A DNA stretch of 40,402 bases from Actinomycetes bacterium (GTDB lineage Bacteria; Actinomycetota; Actinomycetes; S36-B12), in contig JAHECS010000029.1 of the NCBI GenBank assembly GCA_024641635.1, forward strand, positions 1 to 40,402. The letters run 5' to 3'. The position numbers were made by a program, and so were the translations under genes. Shown one piece after another: positions 9,070 to 24,176 of this stretch. The notes under the pieces were generated by a model. It saw only the letters and a list, made by a program, of their open reading frames with translations. It had not been told where the DNA came from and made no database searches. Position 1 is the first letter of the stretch, and the number at the start of each line of letters is the position of its first letter.

Positions 9070-9959
9070 GCGACGACCCACGCTGGCCGAGGGCGAGCGA
9101 GTGGCTGGCCGCCGGAGACTCGGCGGGTTCGGTGGACGTCACGGTCCTGGGCGTGCCCGCCTCGCGCACCTCGATCAGCCCGACCCACGCGCACCTGACC
9201 CCCAACGCGATCCGTGAGGCACTGGCCCGCTACTCCACCTATGCCTGGTCGCATGATCTCGACCTGATGTCGCTCAGCGCGCGAGACGCGGGCGACGTGC
9301 TCGACCCCGACGGCGAGGAGGGCGAGCGACGTGTCATGGAGCGGGTGAGAGTGCTCGCCGCGGAGACGCGCCTTCTCGTCGCCCTCGGTGGCGACAACTC
9401 GATCACCTACAGCGTTGCCCGCGGGCTGTGGGGAGAGACGATCGGGAGCGCCGGGCTCATCACTCTTGATGCCCATCACGACCTCCGCGACGGCGCCAGC
9501 AACGGGTCGCCCGTGCGGAGGCTCGTCGAGGCGGGCCTGTCCGGGTCCCGCGTGGTCCAGATCGGGATAGCGGACTTCTCCAACTCGGCGGACTACGCCG
9601 CGCGGGCAAGGGACCTCGGCATCACCGTCGTGACTCGCGATGCCCTGCGCCGCCGTCCGCTCGGGGACGTCATGGCCGAGTCGCTCGCGATCGCCTCCAG
9701 CGGTGGCGGGCCCGTGCACGTCGACCTCGACGTCGACGTGTGCGACCGATCGGTCGTGCCCGGCTGCCCGGCAGCGGCACCCGGCGGCCTGACCGCTGAC
9801 GAGCTCAGGCAGGTGGCCTTCCTGGCCGGTCGCTCGCCGCGGGTGGCGGCGGTCGACATCACCGAGATCGACGCCAGCGCGGACGCGCCGGACGGTCGGA
9901 CGGTGCGCCTCGGCGCGCTGCTCGTCCTTGAGGCAGCGGCAGGCGTCGCCCTCCGCTGA
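9066..9959 (+). CDS. hutG: Formimidoylglutamase (arginase superfamily)
   Basis: HutG hydrolyses N-formimidoyl-L-glutamate to glutamate and formamide, completing the pathway. The 297-residue ureohydrolase has VALGGDNS (residues 106-112), DAHHD (135-139), the SNGSPVRRLVE substrate loop and VHVDLDVDVCD (217-227), the Mn-binding aspartates. In arginases and agmatinases the first motif is GGDHS; here the metal-ligand His is Asn111. I recall an Asn at this place in some formiminoglutamases, so this may mark the subfamily rather than loss of function. Translation is coupled to hutR by an ATGA overlap. A hairpin repeat begins immediately after the stop. Confidence 0.88.
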   Translation: MSDDPRWPRASEWLAAGDSAGSVDVTVLGVPASRTSISPTHAHLTPNAIREALARYSTYAWSHDLDLMSLSARDAGDVLDPDGEEGERRVMERVRVLAAETRLLVALGGDNSITYSVARGLWGETIGSAGLITLDAHHDLRDGASNGSPVRRLVEAGLSGSRVVQIGIADFSNSADYAARARDLGITVVTRDALRRRPLGDVMAESLAIASSGGGPVHVDLDVDVCDRSVVPGCPAAAPGGLTADELRQVAFLAGRSPRVAAVDITEIDASADAPDGRTVRLGALLVLEAAAGVALR

Positions 9960-10025
9960 CCGCCGAGAGGCACGCCGTGGTCGTGAAACCGGGGGGTTTC
10001 ACGACCACGGCGTGCCTCTCGGCGG
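9960..10025. repeat. Intergenic long-hairpin repeat, copy 2 of 4
   Basis: A perfect 31-bp stem (9960-9990 with 9995-10025) closes on a GGGG loop. It starts one base after the hutG TGA, as copy 1 does after the moaB TGA, and ends 14 bp before the stop of the convergent nitrate transporter gene. The variable pair is C9976-G10009. It lies between convergent genes, so a role as a two-way transcript end is possible. Confidence 0.93.
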
Positions 10026-10039
10026 GAGTGCGTTCCGTC

Positions 10040-11377
10040 CTAGCAGCGCTTCTCGGCTCCCGGCCGCGCGTAGTACCACCAGGACACGATCCCGGCGATG
10101 AACGCGAAGACCACGCCGAGTCCGAAGAACAGGGTGGGCGCGATGAAGGACAGCAGCACCCCGAAGATGAACGGCCCGTAGGCGGCGATCGCCGACGTCC
10201 AGCCGATGACGCCACCGGCCTGCCTGCGCTCGAAGATCATCGGCATCTGCTTGAACGTGCTCGCATTGCCCACGCCGGCGAAGAAGAAGATCACCAGCAT
10301 CCCGTAGAGGAACTTGGGGAAGTCGTCGGCAGAGGTCGGGTTGAGCTGGAAGGCGGTGTAGAGCGAGCCGAGTGAGATCCCCAGGGTGGCGACGAACGTG
10401 ATGCGGCCGCCGCCGAGCCTGTCCGCGACCGGTCCTGCGAGCACCCGCGCCAGGGACCCGACCAGCGCCCCGAGGAAGGCGTACTTGAGCGGGTCGATGC
10501 CGGCCTCGCCGAACACCTTGGTGCCGTAGAGGTTGTTGATCAGCAGGCCGAAGCCGGCCGCGAGGCCCGAGAACGTGCCGAAGGTGATGACGTACAGGTA
10601 GGTCATGATCCACGTGTGCTTGTTCTTGAAGATGTCCATCTGCTCGCGCACCCCGCGTGCCTGCACGGGGACGCTGCGCAGGAGCAGCCAGGCGAGGATG
10701 ACGGCGACGACCACGAACGGCACCCAGATGTAGGCGGCGTTCTGGAACCAGACCTCCTTGCTGGCGCCGGTGTCCTTGTTGGTGAGCATCTGCGACGTGC
10801 CGCCGATGATCGCGAACCCGATCACCCACGGCGTGACGAACTGCACGATGCTCACGCCGAAGTTGCCGATGCCCGCTTGGAGGCCGAGCGCCGTGCCCTG
10901 CTTGGACCGGGGGAAGAAGTACGAGGTGCTCGGCATGAAGCCCGAGAAGGCGCCGCCGCCGATGCCGGCGAGGATGCCGAGGAGCAGCAGCACCACGTAA
11001 GGCGTTTCGGGGTTCTGGACGGCGAGCGCCCAGCCGACCAGGGGGATGAGGAAGAGCGCCGTCGTCAGCGTGACGAGCTTGCGCGTGCCCATGATGGGCG
11101 GCAGGAACGTCCAGACCAGGCGCAGTGAGCCGCCTGCGAGTCCCGGCATGGCGATGAGCCAGTAGAGCTGGGCGTCACTGAGGTCGAAGCCGATGCTGTT
11201 GAGCTTGGGCGCGATCGCCGACGCGAGGAACCACGTGATGAAGGCCAGCGTGAGCGCGAATGTCGTGACCCACAGGGTCTTCCAGGCCCGACCGGAGTCC
11301 CAGGTCGCTGAGTCCTCGGGGTCCCAGGACGGAAGCCAGTCCGATCCCTTGCGGGCGGGCGAGTCGGTGGTGCTCAT
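10040..11377 (-). CDS. narK: NarK-type nitrate/nitrite transporter (second of the pair)
   Basis: This 445-residue MFS protein of about 12 helices belongs to the nitrate/nitrite porter family. It shows the nitrate signature glycine-rich segments GIGNFGVSIVQFVTPWV (helix 5) and GVGNASTFKQMPMIFERRQ followed by GGVIGWTSAIAAYGPF (helix 11), and has charged R/K residues in helices. The 35-residue N-terminal tail (SDWLPSWDPEDSATWDSG) is typical of E. coli NarK-like antiporters, which exchange nitrate for nitrite. The ATG at 11377 overlaps the stop of the upstream narK by 4 bp, so the two porters are co-translated. Which one is symporter and which antiporter is inferred only from resemblance. Confidence 0.9.
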   Translation of the reverse strand: MSTTDSPARKGSDWLPSWDPEDSATWDSGRAWKTLWVTTFALTLAFITWFLASAIAPKLNSIGFDLSDAQLYWLIAMPGLAGGSLRLVWTFLPPIMGTRKLVTLTTALFLIPLVGWALAVQNPETPYVVLLLLGILAGIGGGAFSGFMPSTSYFFPRSKQGTALGLQAGIGNFGVSIVQFVTPWVIGFAIIGGTSQMLTNKDTGASKEVWFQNAAYIWVPFVVVAVILAWLLLRSVPVQARGVREQMDIFKNKHTWIMTYLYVITFGTFSGLAAGFGLLINNLYGTKVFGEAGIDPLKYAFLGALVGSLARVLAGPVADRLGGGRITFVATLGISLGSLYTAFQLNPTSADDFPKFLYGMLVIFFFAGVGNASTFKQMPMIFERRQAGGVIGWTSAIAAYGPFIFGVLLSFIAPTLFFGLGVVFAFIAGIVSWWYYARPGAEKRC

Positions 11378-12756
11378 GAACGGGCTCCTGTCTGGGTGAG
11401 GTCGTGCTGGTCGGTGAAGGGCGCCTCGTCGGCGACGCTGGCGTCATGGGAATGCTCGAACTTGTTGGCGAGCTCGGGGCTGGCCTTGTGCAGGATCGAC
11501 ACCACGGTGATGTGCATCCAGATCATGGCGATGGCGGTGACGACGAAGACGACGAAGAAGGTCATCTGCGGCAGGCCCGTCCAGGCAGTGGCGTAGGCGA
11601 ACATCGGCGGGAGGAAGAAGCCGCCGAGGGCGCCCAGCGATCCGACGAGGCCGCCGACGGCGCCGACGTCGTGGGGGAAGTACTCGGGGATGTGCTTGTA
11701 GACGGCGGCCTTGCCGATGCCCATGGCGCAGCCCATGAGGAAGACGAGCAGGGTGAACAGCGTGGTGCCGACGCTCCACGGCAGCACTTCGTTGGTGGTG
11801 CCGTCCGGAAGGTCGAGGACGATGTACCCGTAGGGCATCATGAGAATGCCTGAGGCGATCAGCATGATGGTGAAGCAGGCGTACATCACGCGGCGGGCGC
11901 CGATGCGGTCCGAGACGTAGCCTCCGACCGGACGCAGCAGCGAGGCGGGGAAGATGAAGAGCGCCGTCAGCAGTGCCGCCTGGCTCAGCGGCATGTCGTA
12001 CACGTCGACGTAGTACTTGGGCAACCAGGCCGCGAGGGCGACGTAGGCGCCGAACACGACGACGTAGTAGAGGCTGAAGCGCCACACGCGGCTCTGCTTG
12101 AGCGGCCGGAGCAGTGAGGGAAGCGACCGGCCTCCGCCGGGCTTGATCTCGCGGTGGGGAGTGAAGGCCCACGTGAGGATGGCCATGGCCACGAGCAGCA
12201 CCATGTAGAGGAACGGAACGAAGCGCCAGCCTCCGGGGATGAAGCCGCCGAGCAGGCCGGCTGCCGGGACGATGGCGATCAGGGCCGGCCCGATGAACTT
12301 CGTGACGGAGGCGCCGACGTTTCCTGCCCCGAACACGCCCAACGCGAAGCCCTGTCGGTTCTGCGGGTACCAGGCGCTGACCCACGCGATGCCGACGCTG
12401 AAGGAGTTGCCTGCGAATCCGACGAGGAAGGCGTAGAAGAGCAGGACCGTGAACGAGGTCGCCGTGGACACGAGGTAGGCGGGGATCGCGGTTACCGCGA
12501 GCATCGCGACGAAGACCCGCTTGCCGCCGAATCGGTCCGCGGCGAGTCCGGCCGGCAGTCGCCAGATCGCACCGTTGAGGACGGCGACGGCGGTGATCCA
12601 GGACAGCTGCACGTCCGTGAGGCCGAACTCGTCGCGGATGGGGATGCCCAGAACCCCGAACATCAGCCAGACGGCGAACATCAGGGTGAAGCCGATGGTC
12701 GACCAGACGAGGATGCTCGTCCGGCCCTTCTGGTACGTCTCTGTGGTCACGGGCAT
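11374..12756 (-). CDS. narK: NarK1-type nitrate transporter (first of the pair)
   Basis: About 460 residues with 12 predicted helices. It contains the MFS motif RLPAGLAADRFGGKRV, the nitrate signature GAGNVGASVTKFIGPAL and GCAMGIGKAAVYKHIPEYFP. This form resembles the NarK1 (proton-nitrate symporter) half of Paracoccus-type fused porters. ATG 12756 is taken as start (MPVTTETYQKGR); the frame is open a further 64 codons upstream, but that extension crosses the AT-rich promoter and has no transporter character. It diverges from the HTH regulator at 12830, with 73 bp between them. Co-operonic with the second narK. Confidence 0.92.
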   Translation of the reverse strand: MPVTTETYQKGRTSILVWSTIGFTLMFAVWLMFGVLGIPIRDEFGLTDVQLSWITAVAVLNGAIWRLPAGLAADRFGGKRVFVAMLAVTAIPAYLVSTATSFTVLLFYAFLVGFAGNSFSVGIAWVSAWYPQNRQGFALGVFGAGNVGASVTKFIGPALIAIVPAAGLLGGFIPGGWRFVPFLYMVLLVAMAILTWAFTPHREIKPGGGRSLPSLLRPLKQSRVWRFSLYYVVVFGAYVALAAWLPKYYVDVYDMPLSQAALLTALFIFPASLLRPVGGYVSDRIGARRVMYACFTIMLIASGILMMPYGYIVLDLPDGTTNEVLPWSVGTTLFTLLVFLMGCAMGIGKAAVYKHIPEYFPHDVGAVGGLVGSLGALGGFFLPPMFAYATAWTGLPQMTFFVVFVVTAIAMIWMHITVVSILHKASPELANKFEHSHDASVADEAPFTDQHDLTQTGARS

Positions 12757-12790
12757 GATTAAAGCACAGTCAGCAGAATAAATCCCATAA

Positions 12791-12804
12791 GTATTAATAA
12801 ATAC
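12791..12804. promoter_or_regulatory. AT-rich inverted repeat in the narK / nar-regulator divergent spacer
   Basis: GTATT-N4-AATAC is a perfect 5-bp dyad in a markedly AT-rich spacer (about 12755-12825) inside otherwise GC-rich DNA. A TATGGT hexamer (12813-12818) lies 11 nt before the regulator ATG and could be its -10. The dyad is well placed to control narK leftward and regulator-narGHJI rightward. The binding protein is not known; the adjacent regulator is the first candidate. Confidence 0.4.
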
Positions 12805-12829
12805 CGGGAATGTATGGTAGAAATCGGTC

Positions 12830-13525
12830 ATGGCCGAGATCGGGAGTGCCCTCGAGAGCCGCTCGCGCGTCCAGGCGGTGATCGACGAGTCCGGTGTGCC
12901 CCTCACGGTCGAGCAGGTCGCCGAGCGCACCGGACTCCACGCCAACACGGTCCGAGGTCACCTCGACGTGCTTCTCGCCACCGGCGTCGTGGCCCGGGAC
13001 CCGGCCGACGCTCAGGGCCGGGGGCGTCCGCGATGGCTGTATCGCGCCGCGCAGCCGAAGGCCACCCCGTTCGAACTGCTGGCGCAGGCCCTGACAACCC
13101 AGCTGACGCGCTCACAGGACCCCGATCTGGCCGACGCAGCCGCGGAGCGATGGTCCCAGGCCCTGCCCGACCTCCCCGTCGCGGGATCGCCCGACGAAGC
13201 GGTCGCCGAGACCACGGACGCGCTCAGGAGGCTCGGTTTCGGGGCGGCCACCAGCCCCGTGGGCGACGCCATCGCGCTCACCGGCTGCCCCTACGCCGAC
13301 CTCGTCGACGATAACCCGGTCATCTGCGACATCCATGCGGCACTCGTCGTGCGGCTGCTGGACCAGACCGGTCAGGGAGTGACCCTGGGCTCCATGGACG
13401 TGTGGGCGCGACCGGGCCTGTGCGTCGCCCACCTCCAGCGCGACGACGTCGATCCGGCTCGCACGATCACCATCGGCTCCATCCCGAAGCACACGGACGC
13501 CGCTCTCGAAGGGAAAGCACCGTGA
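12830..13525 (+). CDS. ArsR/SufR-like HTH regulator with a three-cysteine (possible Fe-S) C-terminal domain
   Basis: The 231-residue protein has a winged HTH at residues 8-75 (LTVEQVAERTGLHANTVRGHLDVL, then the GRGRPRWLY wing). A C-terminal domain carries TGC153PYADL, PVIC166DIH and GLC198VAHL. The spacing Cys-X12-Cys-X31-Cys recalls SufR, whose cluster ligands begin Cys-X12-Cys and include two more Cys; one of those is absent here. By family it may bind an Fe-S cluster and so sense O2, NO or iron, but that is inference. Its stop overlaps the narG GTG by 4 bp, so it is the first gene of the nar operon and diverges from narK. I know no standard name for it. Confidence 0.85.
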   Translation: MAEIGSALESRSRVQAVIDESGVPLTVEQVAERTGLHANTVRGHLDVLLATGVVARDPADAQGRGRPRWLYRAAQPKATPFELLAQALTTQLTRSQDPDLADAAAERWSQALPDLPVAGSPDEAVAETTDALRRLGFGAATSPVGDAIALTGCPYADLVDDNPVICDIHAALVVRLLDQTGQGVTLGSMDVWARPGLCVAHLQRDDVDPARTITIGSIPKHTDAALEGKAP

Positions 13526-16500
13526 CCACTGTCCAAGGCGCGAGCTCCGCGACCGACGACTTCCTCGTCAAGGCAGCGAGGTTCTTCACCCCCGGCACCG
13601 TCTCATCGGATCTGCGAACGGTCACCAAAGTGGGCGGACGAGACGGAGACGTGTTCTACCGGGATCGGTGGAGTCACGACAAGGTCGTACGAAGCACGCA
13701 CGGCGTCAACTGCACGGGCTCGTGCTCGTGGAAGGTGTACGTCAAGGACGGGATCATCACCTGGGAGACGCAGCAGACCGACTACCCGACCGTCGGCCCG
13801 GACAGTCCCGAGTACGAGCCTCGCGGATGCCCGCGCGGAGCGGCGTTCTCCTGGTACACGTACTCGCCCACGCGCGTGCGCTACCCATACGTTCGTGGCG
13901 TCCTGCTCGAGGCCTACCGGGCGGCCAAGGCCGTCACTCCGGATCCGGTCGACGCCTGGGCCGCCGTGGTCGGCGACCCCGAGACCCGTCGCCGCTACCA
14001 GAAGGCCCGCGGCAAGGGCGGCCTCGTCCGGGCCTCCTGGCCCGAGGTGCTGGAGATCATCGGTGCAGCGCACGTGCACACCGCGAAGGTGCACGGTCCG
14101 GACCGCATCTTCGGCTTCTCGCCGATCCCCGCGATGTCGATGGCGTCTCATGCGGCCGGGGGCAGGTTCATCAGCCTGATGGGCGGATCGATGCTGTCCT
14201 TCTACGACTGGTACTGCGACCTGCCGGTGGCCTCGCCGCAGGTGTTCGGCGACCAGACGGACGTGCCCGAGTCCGCCGACTGGTGGAACGCCTCGTACCT
14301 GATCATGTGGGGCGCCAACGTCCCCGTCACCCGCACGCCGGACGCCCACTTCATGGCGGAAGCCCGATACCGGGGCCAGAAGGTCGTCACCGTATCCCCG
14401 GACTACGCGGACAACACGAAGTTCGCCGACGAGTGGATGGCTCCCCACCCCGGCACCGACGGCGCGCTCGCGATGGCGATGGGGCACGTCGTGCTGAAGG
14501 AGTTCTTCGTCGAGCGGCAGGTGCCGAGGTTCGTCGACTACGTCAAGAAGTACAGCGACCTTCCGTTCCTCGTGACGCTGCGCGAGAAGCAGGGCTCGTG
14601 GGTGCCGGACAAGTTCGTCACGTCAGCCGACCTGGGGGACGAGGGCGAAGGGGCCGCGTTCAAGACGGTCGTCGTGGACGCCGCCACTGGGCGGCCGCAT
14701 GTGCCCAACGGCTCGCTGGGCTTCCGGTTCGGCGAGGCGGGCAAGGGCAAGTGGAACCTCGACCTCGAGGGGGTCGACCCGGCGCTGTCCCTCCTCGGCG
14801 CGAGCGGCACCGAGGGAGTGGAAGTCCTTCTGCCGCGATTCGACGTCGGGCAGGAGGACGGCGAGGGTGGCGGGAGCCACCTCCGAGGCGTTCCCGCCGC
14901 ACGCCTGACCACTCCGGCGGGCGAGCGCCTGGTCACCACGGTGTTCGACCTGATGCTCGCGCAGTACGGCGTCCCACGCGACGGGCTGCCTGGACAGTGG
15001 CCGGCCGGCTACGACGATCCGGAGCCGTACACGCCCGCGTGGCAGGAGGAGATCACCGGGGTCCCGGCGGCCATGGCGGAACGGATCGGACGCGAGTTCG
15101 CCCAGAACGCCGAGGACTCCGGAGGACGATCGATGATCATCCTGGGAGCCGGCACGAACCACTGGTTCCATTCCGACACCATCTACCGCACCTTCCTCGC
15201 CCTCGTGACGCTGTGCGGAACGCAGGGAGTCAACGGCGGGGGCTGGGCTCACTACGTGGGTCAGGAGAAGTGCCGCCCGGTCACGGGATGGGCCCAGCTG
15301 GCCTTCGGGCTGGACTGGCAGCGTCCGCCGCGCCAGATGATCGGGACCGGCTTCTGGTACGTGCAGACCGATCAGTGGCGCTACGACCGCCTGGGTGCGG
15401 ACCTGCTCGCCTCGCCGCTGGGGGAAGGGCGCTTCGCCGGCCGGTCGATGATCGACACGATGGCCCAGTCGGCGCGCTCGGGGTGGATGCCCTCGTACCC
15501 GCAGTTCGATCGCAATCCCCTCGACCTCGCCGACGAGGCGGAGGCCTCGGGCATGCCGCCCGCCGACTACGTGAGGGACGAGCTCAAGGCCGGACGACTG
15601 GCGTTCGCCATCGATGATCCGGATGCCGAGGGCAACTGGCCCCGCGTGCTCACTGTGTGGCGGGCCAACCTGCTCGGTTCGTCCAGCAAGGGCAACGAGT
15701 TCTTCCTTCGGCACCTGCTCGGAACGAGCAATGCGGTCCGCGCCGATGAGGCGCCTGAGGGCGAACGGCCCCGGGACGTGACGTGGCGGGACGAGGCCCC
15801 GGAGGGCAAGCTCGACCTCCTCGTCAGCATCGACTTCCGGATGACGAGCACCGGGCTCTTCGGCGACATCCTGCTGCCGGCAGCGACCTGGTACGAGAAG
15901 CACGACCTGTCCACGACAGACATGCATCCCTACGTGCACGCGTTCACCCCCGCGATCGACCCGCCGTGGGAGACGCGCAGTGACTACGACATCTTCCAGG
16001 CACTCGGGCGCAAGGTGTCCGATCTCGCTCCGGGGCATCTGGACGTGCGCAAGGACCTCGTGTCGGTGCCCCTGCTGCACGACACCCCCGACGAGATGGC
16101 CGTTCCGGGTGGCGTCGTGCGCGACTGGAGATCGGGCGAGGTCGACCTCGTCCCCGGGCTGACGGCTCCGAAGTTCGTCATGGTGGAGCGCGACTACACG
16201 GCCCTCGGCGCGAAGATGTCGGCGCTGGGCCCCCTGGCCGCGAAGGCCGGCATGGTCACCAAGGGCGTGCCGTTCTCGCCCACCGTCGAGGTGGAGGAGC
16301 TGGCATCGAGGAACGGGGTCATCCCGGACGGCTACGCGGCGGGACGACCGTCCCTCGCCACGGACATCCACGCCTGCGAGACCATCCTTGCCCTCTCCGG
16401 CACCACGAACGGCCGACTGGCCGTTCAGGGGTTCCGTGCCTTGGAGGAGCGGACGGGCATGCCGCTCGCCGACCTGGCCCTGGAGGAGGAGGGCAAGCGC

Positions 16501-17217
16501 ATCACCTTCCCCGACACCCAGGCACGGCCGGTACCAGTGATCACCAGCCCGGAGTGGTCGGGCAGCGAGCACGGCGGACGTCGATACACGGCGTTCTGCA
16601 TCAACGTCGAGAGACTCAAGCCCTGGCACACGCTCACCGGGCGTCAGCACTTCTTCCTCGACCACGACTGGATGACCGAGATCGGCGAGGGCCTGCCCAC
16701 GTTCCGGCCGCCGCTGAACCTCAACCGTCTCGACGGCGACCAGCACACGGGCGCCGGTCGGGAGGTCACCGTCCGCTACCTCACACCCCACTCCAAGTGG
16801 TCGATCCACTCCGAGTACCAGGACAACCTGTTCATGCTGTCGCTGTCGCGCGGCGGCCCCGAGATCTGGATGAGTCCGCAGGACGCGGCCGCGATCGGAG
16901 CGAAGGACAACGAGTGGGTCGAGGCGTACAACCGCAACGGCGTGGTGGTCGCTCGGGCCATCGTCTCGCACCGCATGCCTGCGGGCACCGTGTACATGTA
17001 CCACGCGAAGGACAGGACGGTCGACGTTCCCAAGACCGAGACGTCCGGACTGCGCGGTGGAATCCACAACTCGCTGACCCGCCTCATGATCAAGCCGACC
17101 CACATCGTCGGCGGCTACGCCCAGCTGTCGTTCGCCTTCAACTACCTCGGCCCGACAGGCAACCAACGCGATGAGATCACCGTGATCCGCCGCCGTTCGC
17201 AGGAGGTCGAGTACTGA
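13522..17217 (+). CDS. narG: Respiratory nitrate reductase alpha subunit
   Basis: NarG holds the bis-MGD molybdenum site and the FS0 [4Fe-4S] cluster and reduces nitrate to nitrite at the cytoplasmic face of the membrane. The product has 1231 residues, the normal size. FS0 ligands are visible as His60-X3-Cys64-X3-Cys68-X34-Cys103. The Mo-ligand region SFYDWYCDLPVASPQ with QTDVPESADWWN follows near residue 227, and the MGD-binding C-terminal domain ends GYAQLSFAFNYLGPTGNQRDE. GTG 13522 is chosen: it overlaps the regulator stop, has AAGGGAAAG just upstream and gives a family-like start; the frame is open further upstream only as a shadow of the regulator gene. The next gene begins on the stop codon. 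Confidence 0.97.
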   Translation: MTTVQGASSATDDFLVKAARFFTPGTVSSDLRTVTKVGGRDGDVFYRDRWSHDKVVRSTHGVNCTGSCSWKVYVKDGIITWETQQTDYPTVGPDSPEYEPRGCPRGAAFSWYTYSPTRVRYPYVRGVLLEAYRAAKAVTPDPVDAWAAVVGDPETRRRYQKARGKGGLVRASWPEVLEIIGAAHVHTAKVHGPDRIFGFSPIPAMSMASHAAGGRFISLMGGSMLSFYDWYCDLPVASPQVFGDQTDVPESADWWNASYLIMWGANVPVTRTPDAHFMAEARYRGQKVVTVSPDYADNTKFADEWMAPHPGTDGALAMAMGHVVLKEFFVERQVPRFVDYVKKYSDLPFLVTLREKQGSWVPDKFVTSADLGDEGEGAAFKTVVVDAATGRPHVPNGSLGFRFGEAGKGKWNLDLEGVDPALSLLGASGTEGVEVLLPRFDVGQEDGEGGGSHLRGVPAARLTTPAGERLVTTVFDLMLAQYGVPRDGLPGQWPAGYDDPEPYTPAWQEEITGVPAAMAERIGREFAQNAEDSGGRSMIILGAGTNHWFHSDTIYRTFLALVTLCGTQGVNGGGWAHYVGQEKCRPVTGWAQLAFGLDWQRPPRQMIGTGFWYVQTDQWRYDRLGADLLASPLGEGRFAGRSMIDTMAQSARSGWMPSYPQFDRNPLDLADEAEASGMPPADYVRDELKAGRLAFAIDDPDAEGNWPRVLTVWRANLLGSSSKGNEFFLRHLLGTSNAVRADEAPEGERPRDVTWRDEAPEGKLDLLVSIDFRMTSTGLFGDILLPAATWYEKHDLSTTDMHPYVHAFTPAIDPPWETRSDYDIFQALGRKVSDLAPGHLDVRKDLVSVPLLHDTPDEMAVPGGVVRDWRSGEVDLVPGLTAPKFVMVERDYTALGAKMSALGPLAAKAGMVTKGVPFSPTVEVEELASRNGVIPDGYAAGRPSLATDIHACETILALSGTTNGRLAVQGFRALEERTGMPLADLALEEEGKRITFPDTQARPVPVITSPEWSGSEHGGRRYTAFCINVERLKPWHTLTGRQHFFLDHDWMTEIGEGLPTFRPPLNLNRLDGDQHTGAGREVTVRYLTPHSKWSIHSEYQDNLFMLSLSRGGPEIWMSPQDAAAIGAKDNEWVEAYNRNGVVVARAIVSHRMPAGTVYMYHAKDRTVDVPKTETSGLRGGIHNSLTRLMIKPTHIVGGYAQLSFAFNYLGPTGNQRDEITVIRRRSQEVEY

Positions 17218-18842
17218 TGCGCGTGATGGCTCAGATGGCCATGGTGATGAACCTGGACAAGTGCATCGGCTGCCACACCTGCTCCGTCACGTGCAAGCAG
17301 GCGTGGACGAACCGCGCGGGTGTCGAGTACGTGTGGTTCAACAACGTGGAGACCCGCCCGGGGCAGGGCTACCCGCGGACCTACCAGGACCAGGGCAGGT
17401 GGAAGGGCGGCTGGACGGTCAAGAGGGGAAAGCTGCGGCTGCGTTCCGGCGGTCGGATGAAGCGCCTCGCCCAGATCTTCAGCAACCCCAACCTGCCGAC
17501 CATGGACGACTACTACGAGCCGTGGACCTACGAGTACGACATGCTGCTGTCCTCGCCGCTCGGCGAGCACACGCCGGTTGCGCGTCCGAAGTCGCTGATC
17601 TCAGGCAAGAACATGAAGATCGAGTGGTCCGCCAACTGGGATGACGACCTCGCCGGTGGCCCGGAGCTTGCGCCCAAGGATCCCGTTCTCGTGAAGATCA
17701 GGGACCAGGTCGGCGACCGCGTGAAGATGGAGTTCGAGCAGGCGTTCATGTTCTACCTGCCGCGCATCTGCGAGCACTGCCTCAATCCTGCGTGCGTCGC
17801 CTCGTGCCCGTCCGGCGCGATGTACAAGCGCAGCGAGGACGGCATCGTGCTCGTCGACCAGGACCAGTGCCGTGGATGGCGCATGTGCGTCAGTGGCTGC
17901 CCGTACAAGAAGGTGTACTTCAACCACAGGACGGGCAAGGCCGAGAAGTGCACGATGTGCTACCCGCGCATCGAGGTCGGCATGCCGACTGTCTGCTCCG
18001 AGACGTGCGTGGGCCGGCTGAGGTACATCGGCCTGTTCCTCTACGACGCCGACAAGGTCACGGCCGCTGCGGCCGTCGAGGACGAACGTGACCTGCTCGA
18101 GGCCCAGCTCGACCTCCTGCTCGATCCCGAGGACCCTCAGGTTCAGGAGGCCGCACGGCGCGACGGCATCCCCGAGGACTGGCTGAGCGCGGCCGTCCGT
18201 TCCCCGGTCTACAAGCTCGCCAAGGTGTACCGAGTCGCGCTGCCCCTGCATCCGGAGTACCGGACGATGCCGATGGTCTGGTACGTGCCGCCGTTGTCAC
18301 CGGTGGTCGATGCACTGCGCGACACCGGCAACGACGCGGAGGATGCGGGCAACCTCTTCGGTGCGCTCGACGCGCTTCGGATCCCGATCGAGTACCTGGC
18401 GGAGCTCTTCACCGCCGGCGACATCGGGCCTGTCCGGTCGTCGCTGCAGAAGCTCGCCGCGATGCGCTCGTACATGCGCGACGTGAACCTCGGACGTGAG
18501 ACCCGGCCGGACATCCCGGCGGCGGTGGGGATGGACGAGGAGTCGCTGTACGAGATGTACCGCCTCCTCGCGATCGCGAAGTACGAGGACCGGTACGTCA
18601 TCCCCAAGGCGCACACGGAGACGGCTCGCGAGCTCGAGGAGCTGGCGTGCGCGGTCGACTATGCCGGCGGAGCCGGCCATGTGTCTGGGCCTTTCGGCGA
18701 GGTGTCGGGGCGACCGGTGCCAGTGGCCGTCGAGACCTTCCACGCGCTGAAGGAGCGCCAGACGACGGAGGTCATCATCCCCGTCGAGGCGGTCCGGGTG
18801 AACCTGCGGAACTGGGATGGGCTGGGTGGTGGCGATGAGTGA
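17217..18842 (+). CDS. narH: Respiratory nitrate reductase beta subunit
   Basis: NarH carries four Fe-S clusters that relay electrons from NarI to NarG. The 541-residue product shows CIGCHTCSVTCKQAW (residues 16-30), CEHCLNPACVASCPSGA, CRGWRMCVSGCPYKK and CTMCYPRIEVG...CSETCVGRLRYIG. Trp221 replaces a cysteine in CRGWRMC, which in this family produces the one [3Fe-4S] cluster, as in E. coli NarH. The C-terminal NarH-specific domain is present (FHALKERQTTEVIIP). The ATG overlaps the narG stop (TGATG) and the end overlaps narJ by 8 bp, so it is tightly coupled. ATG 17226 is a possible alternative start three codons in. Confidence 0.97.
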   Translation: MRVMAQMAMVMNLDKCIGCHTCSVTCKQAWTNRAGVEYVWFNNVETRPGQGYPRTYQDQGRWKGGWTVKRGKLRLRSGGRMKRLAQIFSNPNLPTMDDYYEPWTYEYDMLLSSPLGEHTPVARPKSLISGKNMKIEWSANWDDDLAGGPELAPKDPVLVKIRDQVGDRVKMEFEQAFMFYLPRICEHCLNPACVASCPSGAMYKRSEDGIVLVDQDQCRGWRMCVSGCPYKKVYFNHRTGKAEKCTMCYPRIEVGMPTVCSETCVGRLRYIGLFLYDADKVTAAAAVEDERDLLEAQLDLLLDPEDPQVQEAARRDGIPEDWLSAAVRSPVYKLAKVYRVALPLHPEYRTMPMVWYVPPLSPVVDALRDTGNDAEDAGNLFGALDALRIPIEYLAELFTAGDIGPVRSSLQKLAAMRSYMRDVNLGRETRPDIPAAVGMDEESLYEMYRLLAIAKYEDRYVIPKAHTETARELEELACAVDYAGGAGHVSGPFGEVSGRPVPVAVETFHALKERQTTEVIIPVEAVRVNLRNWDGLGGGDE

Positions 18843-19467
18843 TCGATCGACGGCTGCGGCGCGGTTGGCCTGCTCCTGGCTCCTGTCGTACCCCGACGAA
18901 CGGCTGCTGGCGCAGCTCGACGGGATCGCGGCGATCGCGGAGGAGCTTCCCGCCTCGTCAGGGGATCCCATCCGCGCCTTCCTGGACCATCTGTCCGGGA
19001 CTCCGTTGACGGTCGTGCAGGAGCACTACGTCGTCATGTTCGACATGAAGAGGAAGGCGTGCCCCTACCTCACGTACTGGACCGACGGTGACACCCGGAA
19101 CCGGGGAAGGGCGATCCTGCGGTTCAAGCAGGCGTATCTCGATGCGGGCTTCGAGCTGGGCAGCGAGGAGCTGCCCGACCACCTGTCCGTCGTGCTGGAG
19201 TTCGCCGCCGTGGGCGACCGGCTGACCGGAGAGGCCTTGCTGGCCGAGCATCAGGAGGCCATCCATCTCCTTCGTGACGCCCTCGCCCGGATGGAGTCGG
19301 CCTACGTGCACGTCCTCGACGGGGTCGTCGCCACCCTGCCGGCGGTGACGCCGGAGATCAGGCAGCGGATGGCGGACATCGCCGCGTCGGGACCGCCCAG
19401 CGAGAGCGTCGGGCTGGAGCCCTTCGGTGCGGCGCTGAGCCTCGAGCCCCTGGGAGCGCGTCGATGA
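18835..19467 (+). CDS. narJ: Nitrate reductase assembly chaperone
   Basis: NarJ binds apo-NarG and assists molybdenum cofactor insertion and membrane attachment; it is not part of the finished enzyme. The 210-residue helical protein has the family core QEHYVVMFDMKRKACPYLTY followed by WTDGDTRNRGRA, and LPDHLSVVLEFAA. ATG 18835 (MSDRSTAAARLACSW) is chosen, inside the narH end and preceded by GGGTGG; an in-frame ATG at 18817 would add six residues without an evident ribosome site. The stop overlaps the narI ATG by 4 bp. Confidence 0.94.
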   Translation: MSDRSTAAARLACSWLLSYPDERLLAQLDGIAAIAEELPASSGDPIRAFLDHLSGTPLTVVQEHYVVMFDMKRKACPYLTYWTDGDTRNRGRAILRFKQAYLDAGFELGSEELPDHLSVVLEFAAVGDRLTGEALLAEHQEAIHLLRDALARMESAYVHVLDGVVATLPAVTPEIRQRMADIAASGPPSESVGLEPFGAALSLEPLGARR

Positions 19468-20198
19468 GCGCGAAGGACATCCTCCTGTGGGTGGTGCTGC
19501 CCTACGTCACCATCGCCGTCTTCGTGACCGGGACGCTCTGGCGCTATCGCTACGACAAGTTCGGCTGGACGACGCGGTCGAGTCAGCTGTACGAGCGCAG
19601 GCTGATCCGCATCGCCAGTCCGATCTTCCACATCGGCATCCTCGCCGTCGTCGTCGGGCACGTGATCGGGCTCCTCATCCCGGAGTCGTGGACGGACGCG
19701 GCGCGGGTCAGCGAGGACATGTACCACCTCATGGCGGTGGGGATCGGCCTGGTGGCGGGCGCCTGCACCCTGTTCGGCGTGGTGATGCTCATCTACCGGC
19801 GCCGGACCACCGGGCCGGTGTTCGCCGCCACGACGAGGAACGACAAGACCATGTACGTGTTCCTGGTCGCGGCGATCTGCCTCGGACTTCTGACGACGCT
19901 GATCGGCTCGGGCATCGTCGGCGACGGGTACAACTACCGCGAGACGGTCTCGCCCTGGTTCCGCTCGATCTTCCTGCTGAACCCGCAGCCGGAGCTGATG
20001 GCCGAGTCGCTGCCGTCCTTCCAGATCCATGCCGTCGCCGGCATGCTGCTGTTCATCGCCTGGCCGTTCACCCGGCTTGTCCACGCCTTCAGCGCGCCGC
20101 TCGGGTACGTGTTCCGGCCGTACGTGGTCTACCGGGACCGAGGGCCCCATGACTCCGGCAGCCGCCCCTCCCGCCGTGGTTGGGAGCGCGTCGGCTGA
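19464..20198 (+). CDS. narI: Respiratory nitrate reductase gamma subunit (cytochrome b)
   Basis: NarI is the di-haem b membrane anchor that oxidises menaquinol and passes electrons to NarH. The 244 residues form five helices. Haem-ligand histidines are visible in FHIGILAVVVGHVIG (helix 2) and in FQIHAVAGMLLFIAWPFTRLVHAF (written here as separate motifs IHAVAGML and RLVHAF, helix 5), matching the two pairs of E. coli NarI. It is the last nar gene, coupled to narJ by ATGA. A hairpin repeat lies 6 bp past the stop. Confidence 0.95.
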   Translation: MSAKDILLWVVLPYVTIAVFVTGTLWRYRYDKFGWTTRSSQLYERRLIRIASPIFHIGILAVVVGHVIGLLIPESWTDAARVSEDMYHLMAVGIGLVAGACTLFGVVMLIYRRRTTGPVFAATTRNDKTMYVFLVAAICLGLLTTLIGSGIVGDGYNYRETVSPWFRSIFLLNPQPELMAESLPSFQIHAVAGMLLFIAWPFTRLVHAFSAPLGYVFRPYVVYRDRGPHDSGSRPSRRGWERVG

Positions 20199-20204
20199 CC
20201 TCCC

Positions 20205-20273
20205 CACCGCCGAGAGGCACGCCGTGGTCGTGAAACGAGGGGTTTCACGACCACGGCGTGCCTCTCGGCGGTG
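20205..20273. repeat. Intergenic long-hairpin repeat, copy 3 of 4
   Basis: A perfect 32-bp stem (20205-20236 with 20242-20273) encloses the loop GAGGG. It starts 7 bp after the narI TGA. The variable pair is C20223-G20255. Unlike copies 1 and 2, the next gene downstream points the same way, so here it separates the nar operon from the secreted-protein genes. Confidence 0.93.
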
Positions 20274-20478
20274 CTGGGGCGGTGATTTCGGGGCAGGTGA
20301 CGCACGGCGTGTCGTTGTCCCATCAATCACTTCTGCCCCTATCGTCACGTTCGCCCCACAGCAGGCGACCCTGCCGACGGCGCACACGCACGGCCGCACC
20401 TGACACAACTCGATATCGGCGCTGCCGGACTCCACGGGGGGAGGCCGTCACCCTTCCCCTCGGATATGGAGTACCGCC
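20274..20478 (+). other. 205-bp leader region of the secreted-protein genes
   Basis: No gene was found here. A weak promoter can be drawn from TTGTCC (20315-20320) and TATCGT (20340-20345), with a long 19-bp spacer, which would leave a leader of about 130 nt. GGAG at 20468-20471 is the ribosome site for the ATG at 20479. No riboswitch class was recognised in the leader. Confidence 0.35.
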
Positions 20479-24094: not shown

Positions 24095-24160
24095 CCGCCG
24101 AGAGGCACGCTGTGGTCGTGAAACCGGGGTGGTTCACGACCACAGCGTGCCTCTCGGCGG
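24095..24160. repeat. Intergenic long-hairpin repeat, copy 4 of 4
   Basis: A 28-bp stem (24095-24122 with 24133-24160) continues past one unpaired A (24123) into two more pairs around the loop GGGGT. The right arm has lost one T of the TTT found in other copies, the only arm mismatch in the family. The variable pair is T24111-A24144, as in copy 1. It lies 39 bp after the stop at 24056. The bases between are an unusually C-rich tract (about 24060-24096). It separates the secreted-protein genes from the dnaK promoter. Confidence 0.92.
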
Positions 24161-24176
24161 TGTGAGGGAGGTCACA

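Follow-up and report, generated by a model that had tools for sequence, protein, structure and literature searches.

An ArnR homologue at the head of a narGHJI operon in an actinobacterium

ArnR and the nar locus

The closest characterised homologue of the regulator considered here is ArnR (Cgl1185) of Corynebacterium glutamicum, which a 2025 paper describes as an NO sensor with a [4Fe-4S] cluster and as the repressor of narKGHJI and hmp (PMC12343034). The protein has three cysteines, Cys179, Cys193 and Cys223, with a fourth absent, plus a conserved histidine that is mentioned as a possible fourth ligand, and changing any of the three cysteines leads to loss of both the cluster and DNA binding (PMC12343034). 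The same source likens the sensor domain to TRAPPC3, reports a Zn-bound TRAPPC3 as template as well as Zn in ArnR preparations, and has the Crp-family regulator GlxR acting on nar in C. glutamicum (PMC12343034). In the literature found under that name, experimental work on ArnR is confined to Corynebacterium.

The window, by which we mean the whole stretch of 40,402 nucleotides analysed (contig JAHECS010000029.1 of assembly GCA_024641635.1, an Actinomycetes bacterium), contains a nar cluster with a regulator gene at its head. This gene, arn (12830..13525, plus strand), starts with ATG, encodes 231 amino acids and is followed on the same strand by narG (13522..17217), narH (17217..18842), narJ (18817..19467) and narI (19464..20198), all assigned by Pfam. 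The TGA stop of arn (13523-13525) shares the bases GTGA with the GTG start of narG at 13522, a 4-base overlap. On the minus strand, narK (11374..12756), an MFS transporter gene by Pfam, diverges from arn, and beyond it lies a second narK-type MFS transporter gene (10040..11377, minus strand, Pfam), which is the copy closer to narK of four Corynebacterium genomes (50.8-53.9% identity). Read from ATG to ATG, 73 bp separate arn and narK, and this divergent promoter spacer (12757..12829) is AT-rich, with 36% G+C against 60-78% in the flanking windows. A sequence-only reading of this DNA had described just such an arrangement, a winged-helix gene in translational overlap with narG and separated from the divergent narK by an AT-rich spacer of 73 bp, and it is found as described.

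The start of narK may lie slightly further in. In eight relatives (L003-L007, L009, L042 and L051, compared by eye) the narK frame has an upstream stop and its first start codon aligns with Val3 of the window (GTG 12750-12748), so that narK may begin at 12750 rather than at the possible ATG at 12756-12754, giving a spacer of 79 bp; narK of L008 has an upstream ATG like that of the window. One member of the genus (G005) carries two narG copies (G005:C17 and G005:C25), each 90% identical to narG of the window.

Kinship and conservation of the Arn protein

The winged-helix protein with Cys153-X12-Cys166-X31-Cys198 announced by the sequence-only reading is confirmed in that Arn has exactly three cysteines, with gaps of 12 and 31. 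Family libraries recognise its winged helix, and the sensor part receives only a weak MetOD1 match (E 0.032). An AlphaFold2 model, built from 50 sequences (the window's and 49 of its 79 relatives in named genomes), has a mean pLDDT of 90.1. Structure comparison of this model matches residues 1-77 to winged helices and residues 76-205 to BcsD (Z 10.9, 127 aligned, 3.2 A; a second BcsD row has Z 10.8) and to TPC6 (Z 10.1, 125 aligned, 3.3 A), which we take to be a TRAPP subunit. These three rows out of 50 listed cover the sensor domain and the remainder the winged helix; the Foldseek list is likewise dominated by HTH proteins, and BcsD enters it at ranks 13, 29 and 42. The modelled sensor domain thus matches a TRAPP-like fold, the likeness being one of fold only. 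Cys153 is predicted to lie in the loop that follows strand 147-151; helix 164-180 of the model carries Cys166 and His169, and strand 197-203 opens with Cys198.

A search of 201 genomes of one genus, taken to be Corynebacterium, provided the comparison with ArnR, for which 50 loci were used (30 from the search and 20 chosen). One ORF (L158), encoded on the strand of narI and about 0.7 kb downstream of it, has the spacing X13/X29 and places its cysteines at 179, 193 and 223 from the first start codon in frame, which are the published ArnR positions. Among 38 loci read by a motif script it alone joins Cys179 with X13/X29; the script preferred starts giving Cys179, and L158 has no earlier start. 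BLASTP aligns Arn with this ORF at 30% identity over 189 amino acids (E 5e-20 for the single comparison), and profile-profile comparison of the window group with the Corynebacterium group gives a probability of 99.5 and E 2e-22 over 190 columns, spanning both the winged helix and the sensor domain. By these comparisons, Arn is an ArnR homologue. The two share the winged helix, a TRAPP-likened sensor domain, three cysteines with a conserved histidine and no fourth cysteine, and linkage to nar. They differ in spacing (X12/X31 in Arn against X13/X29), the identity of Arn to a Corynebacterium ArnR is about 30%, and the genes occupy different places: arn heads its operon, overlaps narG and diverges from narK, whereas in C. 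glutamicum arnR follows the nar operon on its downstream side. Systems of this kind are already known from ArnR; the operon-head position and the overlap with narG are what is new.

Arn may be, but need not be, a strict orthologue of ArnR. In a careful tree (61 rows chosen from 139), one supported clade (95/93) contains the 13 rows of the window group, every one of them linked to nar, and a separate one (100/100) contains 11 Corynebacterium rows; a joint clade of the two is neither shown nor rejected (p-AU 0.36, or 0.27 with the Nocardioides group added). More distant likenesses, in the winged helix and C-terminal domain, extend to the MsvR/MetOD1-type regulators of methanogens through weak profile matches of some members (MetOD1 in 9 and MsvR in 5 of 50 family members). 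Those regulators differ from the Arn family in cysteine pattern and targets. For Rv2621c of M. tuberculosis, the likeness to Arn consists in its being termed ArnR-like (PMC12343034).

Within the genus, a close arn relative is present in 8 of 14 genomes, each time with narK divergent, narG next, and the three cysteines and their spacing invariant; the L008 protein has a fourth cysteine, at another position. The overlap with narG recurs in seven of the eight loci, L003 being the one without it. Nine of the 14 genomes have a strong narG match and eight of these nine a close arn, the contig of the ninth (G003) beginning inside narG; the other five, in which the narG match is weak or absent, have no close arn (0/5), and one of them (G001) is 73% complete. 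A wider set of 79 loci in named genomes comes from the best 80 of 161 matches. Its 17 closest members (L041-L057, again among the best 80 of 161) all have narK diverging from arn-narG, seven of them carrying the same proteins as genus loci, that is, contigs already in the genus set. Clear narG genes occur in 27 of the 79 loci from these best 80 of 161 matches, along with a short narG match only in L066 and a narI match in L110. Relatives with nar-linked arn are labelled Candidatus Nanopelagicales and other Actinomycetota MAGs, and the linkage is also seen in Nocardioides, Blastococcus, Geodermatophilus, Lacisediminihabitans, Flavimobilis and one other actinomycete (L064).

The candidate ligands are conserved throughout. 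All 79 relatives align with Arn at Cys153, Cys166 and His169, and 78 do so at Cys198, the exception being truncated (best 80 of 161 matches). Part of this agreement comes from the search itself, in which one pattern contained Cys166 together with His169 and a second the HTH, neither of them including Cys153 or Cys198. In 40 rows collected by whole-protein search, Cys153 and Cys166 are each present in 40 and Cys198 in 39 (one truncated), and the position of His169 is Glu in two SufR-type rows and Asp in one. Some match at E 0.001 or better, SufR-like proteins included, is found in 203 genomes of a 396-genome sample of the phylum. Together, ArnR homology, cysteine conservation and nar linkage lend good support to the proposal of the sequence-only reading that nar has a local Fe-S switch belonging to none of the FNR, Crp and NarL families.

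Members of the family also stand beside other genes. With the globin ORF of L179 as query, hmp is found within the available flanks of 7 of the 79 loci (best 80 of 161 matches), two of which also have nar (L084 and L087), and of 10 of the 50 Corynebacterium loci. PF00042 has no match in the window's genome (96.88% complete), but it also gave none in the control C. glutamicum, a species with hmp (PMC12343034), or in three of four Corynebacterium genomes, so this result does not show that Hmp is missing. Control of hmp, a trait of ArnR in C. glutamicum, need not be shared by the whole family. In ten loci of genomes taken to be Corynebacterium (L131, L132, L133, L135, L137, L139, L142, L146, L148 and L152), ArnR-type genes are convergent with hmp, with a spacing of X14/X26 where it was counted by eye (L131, L137, L139 and L152). 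An Actinomadura locus (L062:6748-11404) has an ArnR-type gene near a hemerythrin-DUF2249 gene. Divergent from the hemerythrin gene is one for a membrane protein, and behind that comes a multicopper-oxidase gene (all by Pfam), which reads as nirK-like. L063:7213-9274 also places an ArnR-type gene near a hemerythrin-DUF2249 gene divergent from a membrane-protein gene, and TATTTACTAA stands in the shared hemerythrin/membrane-protein promoter of both loci.

The divergent promoter spacer

The sequence-only reading had drawn attention to an inverted repeat, GTATT-N4-AATAC, in the spacer and had proposed to test whether it is conserved together with the cysteines. The repeat is present (GTATT-AATA-AATAC, 12791..12804, no strand) and its exact form occurs once in the 3.06-Mb genome. 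The three cysteines are invariant in nar-linked relatives, but of 188 loci none contains the exact dyad apart from the two that represent the window's own place, so for the dyad the proposed test fails. Its significance is weak at best: when the spacer is dinucleotide-shuffled 2000 times, an inverted repeat with 5-bp arms arises in 35% of the trials if the loop may be 0-10 and in 4% if it is exactly 4. The dyad itself was rejected as the operator, its exact sequence being absent from relatives and a repeat with 5-bp arms unremarkable in shuffles. Inside it, a shorter core does recur in a few promoters: the minus strand reads GTATTTATTAATAC, which holds TATTTAYTAA and is here the candidate operator. 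Short palindromes in other spacers are mostly at chance level. In L008 (L008:1407-1488), a single perfect palindrome, its 23-bp arms separated by a 6-base loop, takes up most of the spacer and extends into both -10-like elements; it arises in 0 of 200 shuffles and is seen in one genome only.

The core was chosen after inspection of the window and L055-L057. Exact TATTTAYTAA occurs at five places in 855 kb (the 79 loci from the best 80 of 161 matches), all of them TATTTACTAA. Three belong to narK/arn spacers (L055-L057) and two to the hemerythrin/membrane-protein promoter of L062 and L063; up to 60 letter-shuffled patterns average 0.07 occurrences (largest 2) and the reversed pattern has 0. Allowing one mismatch gives 11 places in the same loci (best 80 of 161) against 3 for the reversed pattern, the six further sites lying upstream of arn in L044, L051, L052, L057 and L082 and elsewhere in L060. 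Independent cases are few, L055-L057 being sisters, L062-L063 sisters, and L044 a genus contig. The core appears in 0.34% of 5000 shuffles of the window spacer, and the window core compared with nine relatives' cores in either orientation gives z 4.0 and 4.5 (60 shuffles). Exact words shared by the spacers of the window and L055-L057 are not significant (P 0.64, 0.27 and 0.06), whereas shared words with one mismatch give P 0.013, 0.010 and 0.003.

At their centre, the relatives' spacers have CCGG or ACGG flanked by AT tracts. A matrix made from eight of these spacers, with the window left out, places a CGG-containing element at 12797..12816 on the minus strand, overlapping the dyad, with p 0.02-0.03, or 0.09 for a shortened matrix from which the -10-like half was removed. 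On four distant nar spacers the full matrix finds one (L053, p 0.005; L055-L057, 0.09-0.31), and on four Corynebacterium narK promoters it gives p 0.10-0.44 (combined 0.15), which is not significant. Among the 10 hmp loci, all seven with the hmp start in the available stretch fall below 0.05, four of the seven still doing so with the shortened matrix; these loci are mutually related. As evidence for a shared operator the matrix results are suggestive only, and comparative support is modest both for the TATTTAYTAA core and for the CGG-containing element that overlaps the dyad.

Facing extended -10-like elements, of the CTGTGCTTTAAT and TGTGGTAGAAAT type, stand a few bases before the start codons in the relatives' spacers. 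The window has TATGGTAGAAAT (12813..12824, plus strand), 5 bases before the ATG, as the proposed extended -10 of arn-narGHJI, and facing it CTGTGCTTTAAT (12758..12769, minus strand) as that of narK; both are conserved in the spacers. A -10 element close to the start codon is, as a rule, tied to leaderless transcripts, and the position of these elements a few bases before the starts therefore suggests that arn-narGHJI and narK are transcribed without leaders. A two-hexamer consensus promoter scan of 11300-14000 found none (0.2 expected), and the spacer contains neither FNR sites (TTGAT-N4-ATCAA, up to 2 mismatches) nor Crp sites (TGTGA-N6-TCACA, up to 3 mismatches).

A candidate NO switch and its alternatives

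How would such a regulator act? By analogy with ArnR, it is quite probable that Arn is a repressor of that type, a [4Fe-4S] dimer that blocks both promoters at the spacer and is released by NO. The cluster would be held by Cys153, Cys166, Cys198 and probably His169 in the C-terminal TRAPP-like domain, and the dimer would sit on the AT-rich centre of the spacer, keeping both divergent promoters closed. At low oxygen, NarG would reduce accumulating nitrite to NO, which would nitrosylate the cluster and release the DNA, allowing expression of narK and of arn-narGHJI. Since arn opens the operon and shares bases with narG, its repressor product would be made together with its target, and the switch would be self-limiting. 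NO is the more likely signal by analogy with C. glutamicum, and the conserved histidine strengthens the case for the possible fourth ligand of the 2025 paper (PMC12343034). In this freshwater-type actinobacterium the regulator is probably built into the operon under its control. With regulator, target and the two promoters side by side, the locus offers a compact system for tests. The ArnR sensor type, with invariant candidate ligands, is now placed on the nar operon of uncultured actinobacteria, and in several other families.

Could Arn instead be a SufR-like regulator that reports Fe-S cluster supply, with nar set by iron or cluster status and not by NO? SufR (TIGR02702, and the paralogue L002 in the same genome) and Arn have the winged helix, Cys-X12-Cys and the Fe-S regulator superfamily in common, and of 50 family members 29 match the SufR_cyano model with an E of at most 0.01. 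The X12 spacing made the SufR likeness noted in the sequence-only reading a fair lead, but ArnR, with three cysteines, is the closer characterised relative. Arn itself matches SufR_cyano (NCBIfam TIGR02702) at E 0.035 and 13.8 bits against a cut-off of 178.8, over residues 26-76 only. The cut-off alone is not decisive, as L002 also falls below it (E 2e-16, 60.2 bits). This SufR-like paralogue has four cysteines (C-X3-C-X12-C-X27-C, the fourth being the one X3 before the first of the three) and Glu in place of His169, and it stands before a SufB ORF, thus heading sufB, whereas arn heads narGHJI and not suf genes. The first SufR cysteine corresponds to Ala149 of Arn, a position that varies among relatives, and nar and hmp are among the neighbours of family members. 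These differences make a supply sensor very unlikely. The narrower idea of a SufR that lost one cysteine is ruled out by the separate four-cysteine gene heading sufB together with the ArnR homology.

The three cysteines and the histidine might also bind zinc or form thiol switches, making Arn a direct redox sensor or a structural Zn protein. The TRAPP-like fold match and the MetOD1 and MsvR matches would suit this, as would the zinc found with TRAPPC3 and in ArnR preparations (PMC12343034), but the closest characterised homologue uses the same residues to bind [4Fe-4S] and loses cluster and DNA binding when its cysteines are changed (PMC12343034), and we regard the zinc or thiol protein as quite unlikely. 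An activator of nar that makes use of the conserved extended -10 promoters would accord with the empty two-hexamer scan and with a candidate operator placed where -35 regions would be. ArnR is a repressor, however (PMC12343034), and a site lying between two promoters that face each other suits their joint repression, so activation seems unlikely. Beside the preferred NO-released repressor, other regulatory inputs to nar are possible, because the genome has two matches to PF13545 (Crp-type HTH) and one Rrf2 match above the cut-off. The Rrf2 family includes NO sensors.

A broader proposal is that ArnR-type regulators are a phylum-wide and largely unrecognised nitrogen-oxide switch of Actinomycetota, attached separately, lineage by lineage, to nar, hmp or hemerythrin/multicopper-oxidase (nirK-like) genes and recognising an AT-rich operator whose core is TATTTAYTAA, here as part of the nar operon itself. 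This we put forward tentatively, and would sooner doubt than assert. If true, regulator, both promoters and target would form one self-regulating locus in the lineage of the window.

The window also contains a near-perfect palindromic element at 9958-10026, 20205-20274, about 123-181 and 24098-24157, the first two copies directly flanking the two ends of the narK-arn-nar cluster. Its arms are 31-32 bp and its loop 4-5 bases, and as RNA it folds at -73 kcal/mol (z about -14 to -16). An exact 17-base piece of it is in none of the 188 loci. Across the genome, the arms have 24 forward and 25 reverse matches when up to 3 mismatches are allowed, against 0 for the control; the two arms of a pair frequently carry the same variant. 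Two perfect Crp-type palindromes stand elsewhere in the window, TGTGATCGGTCTCACA at 2910-2925 and TGTGAGGGAGGTCACA at 24161-24176, the latter directly beside a copy of the long palindromic element.
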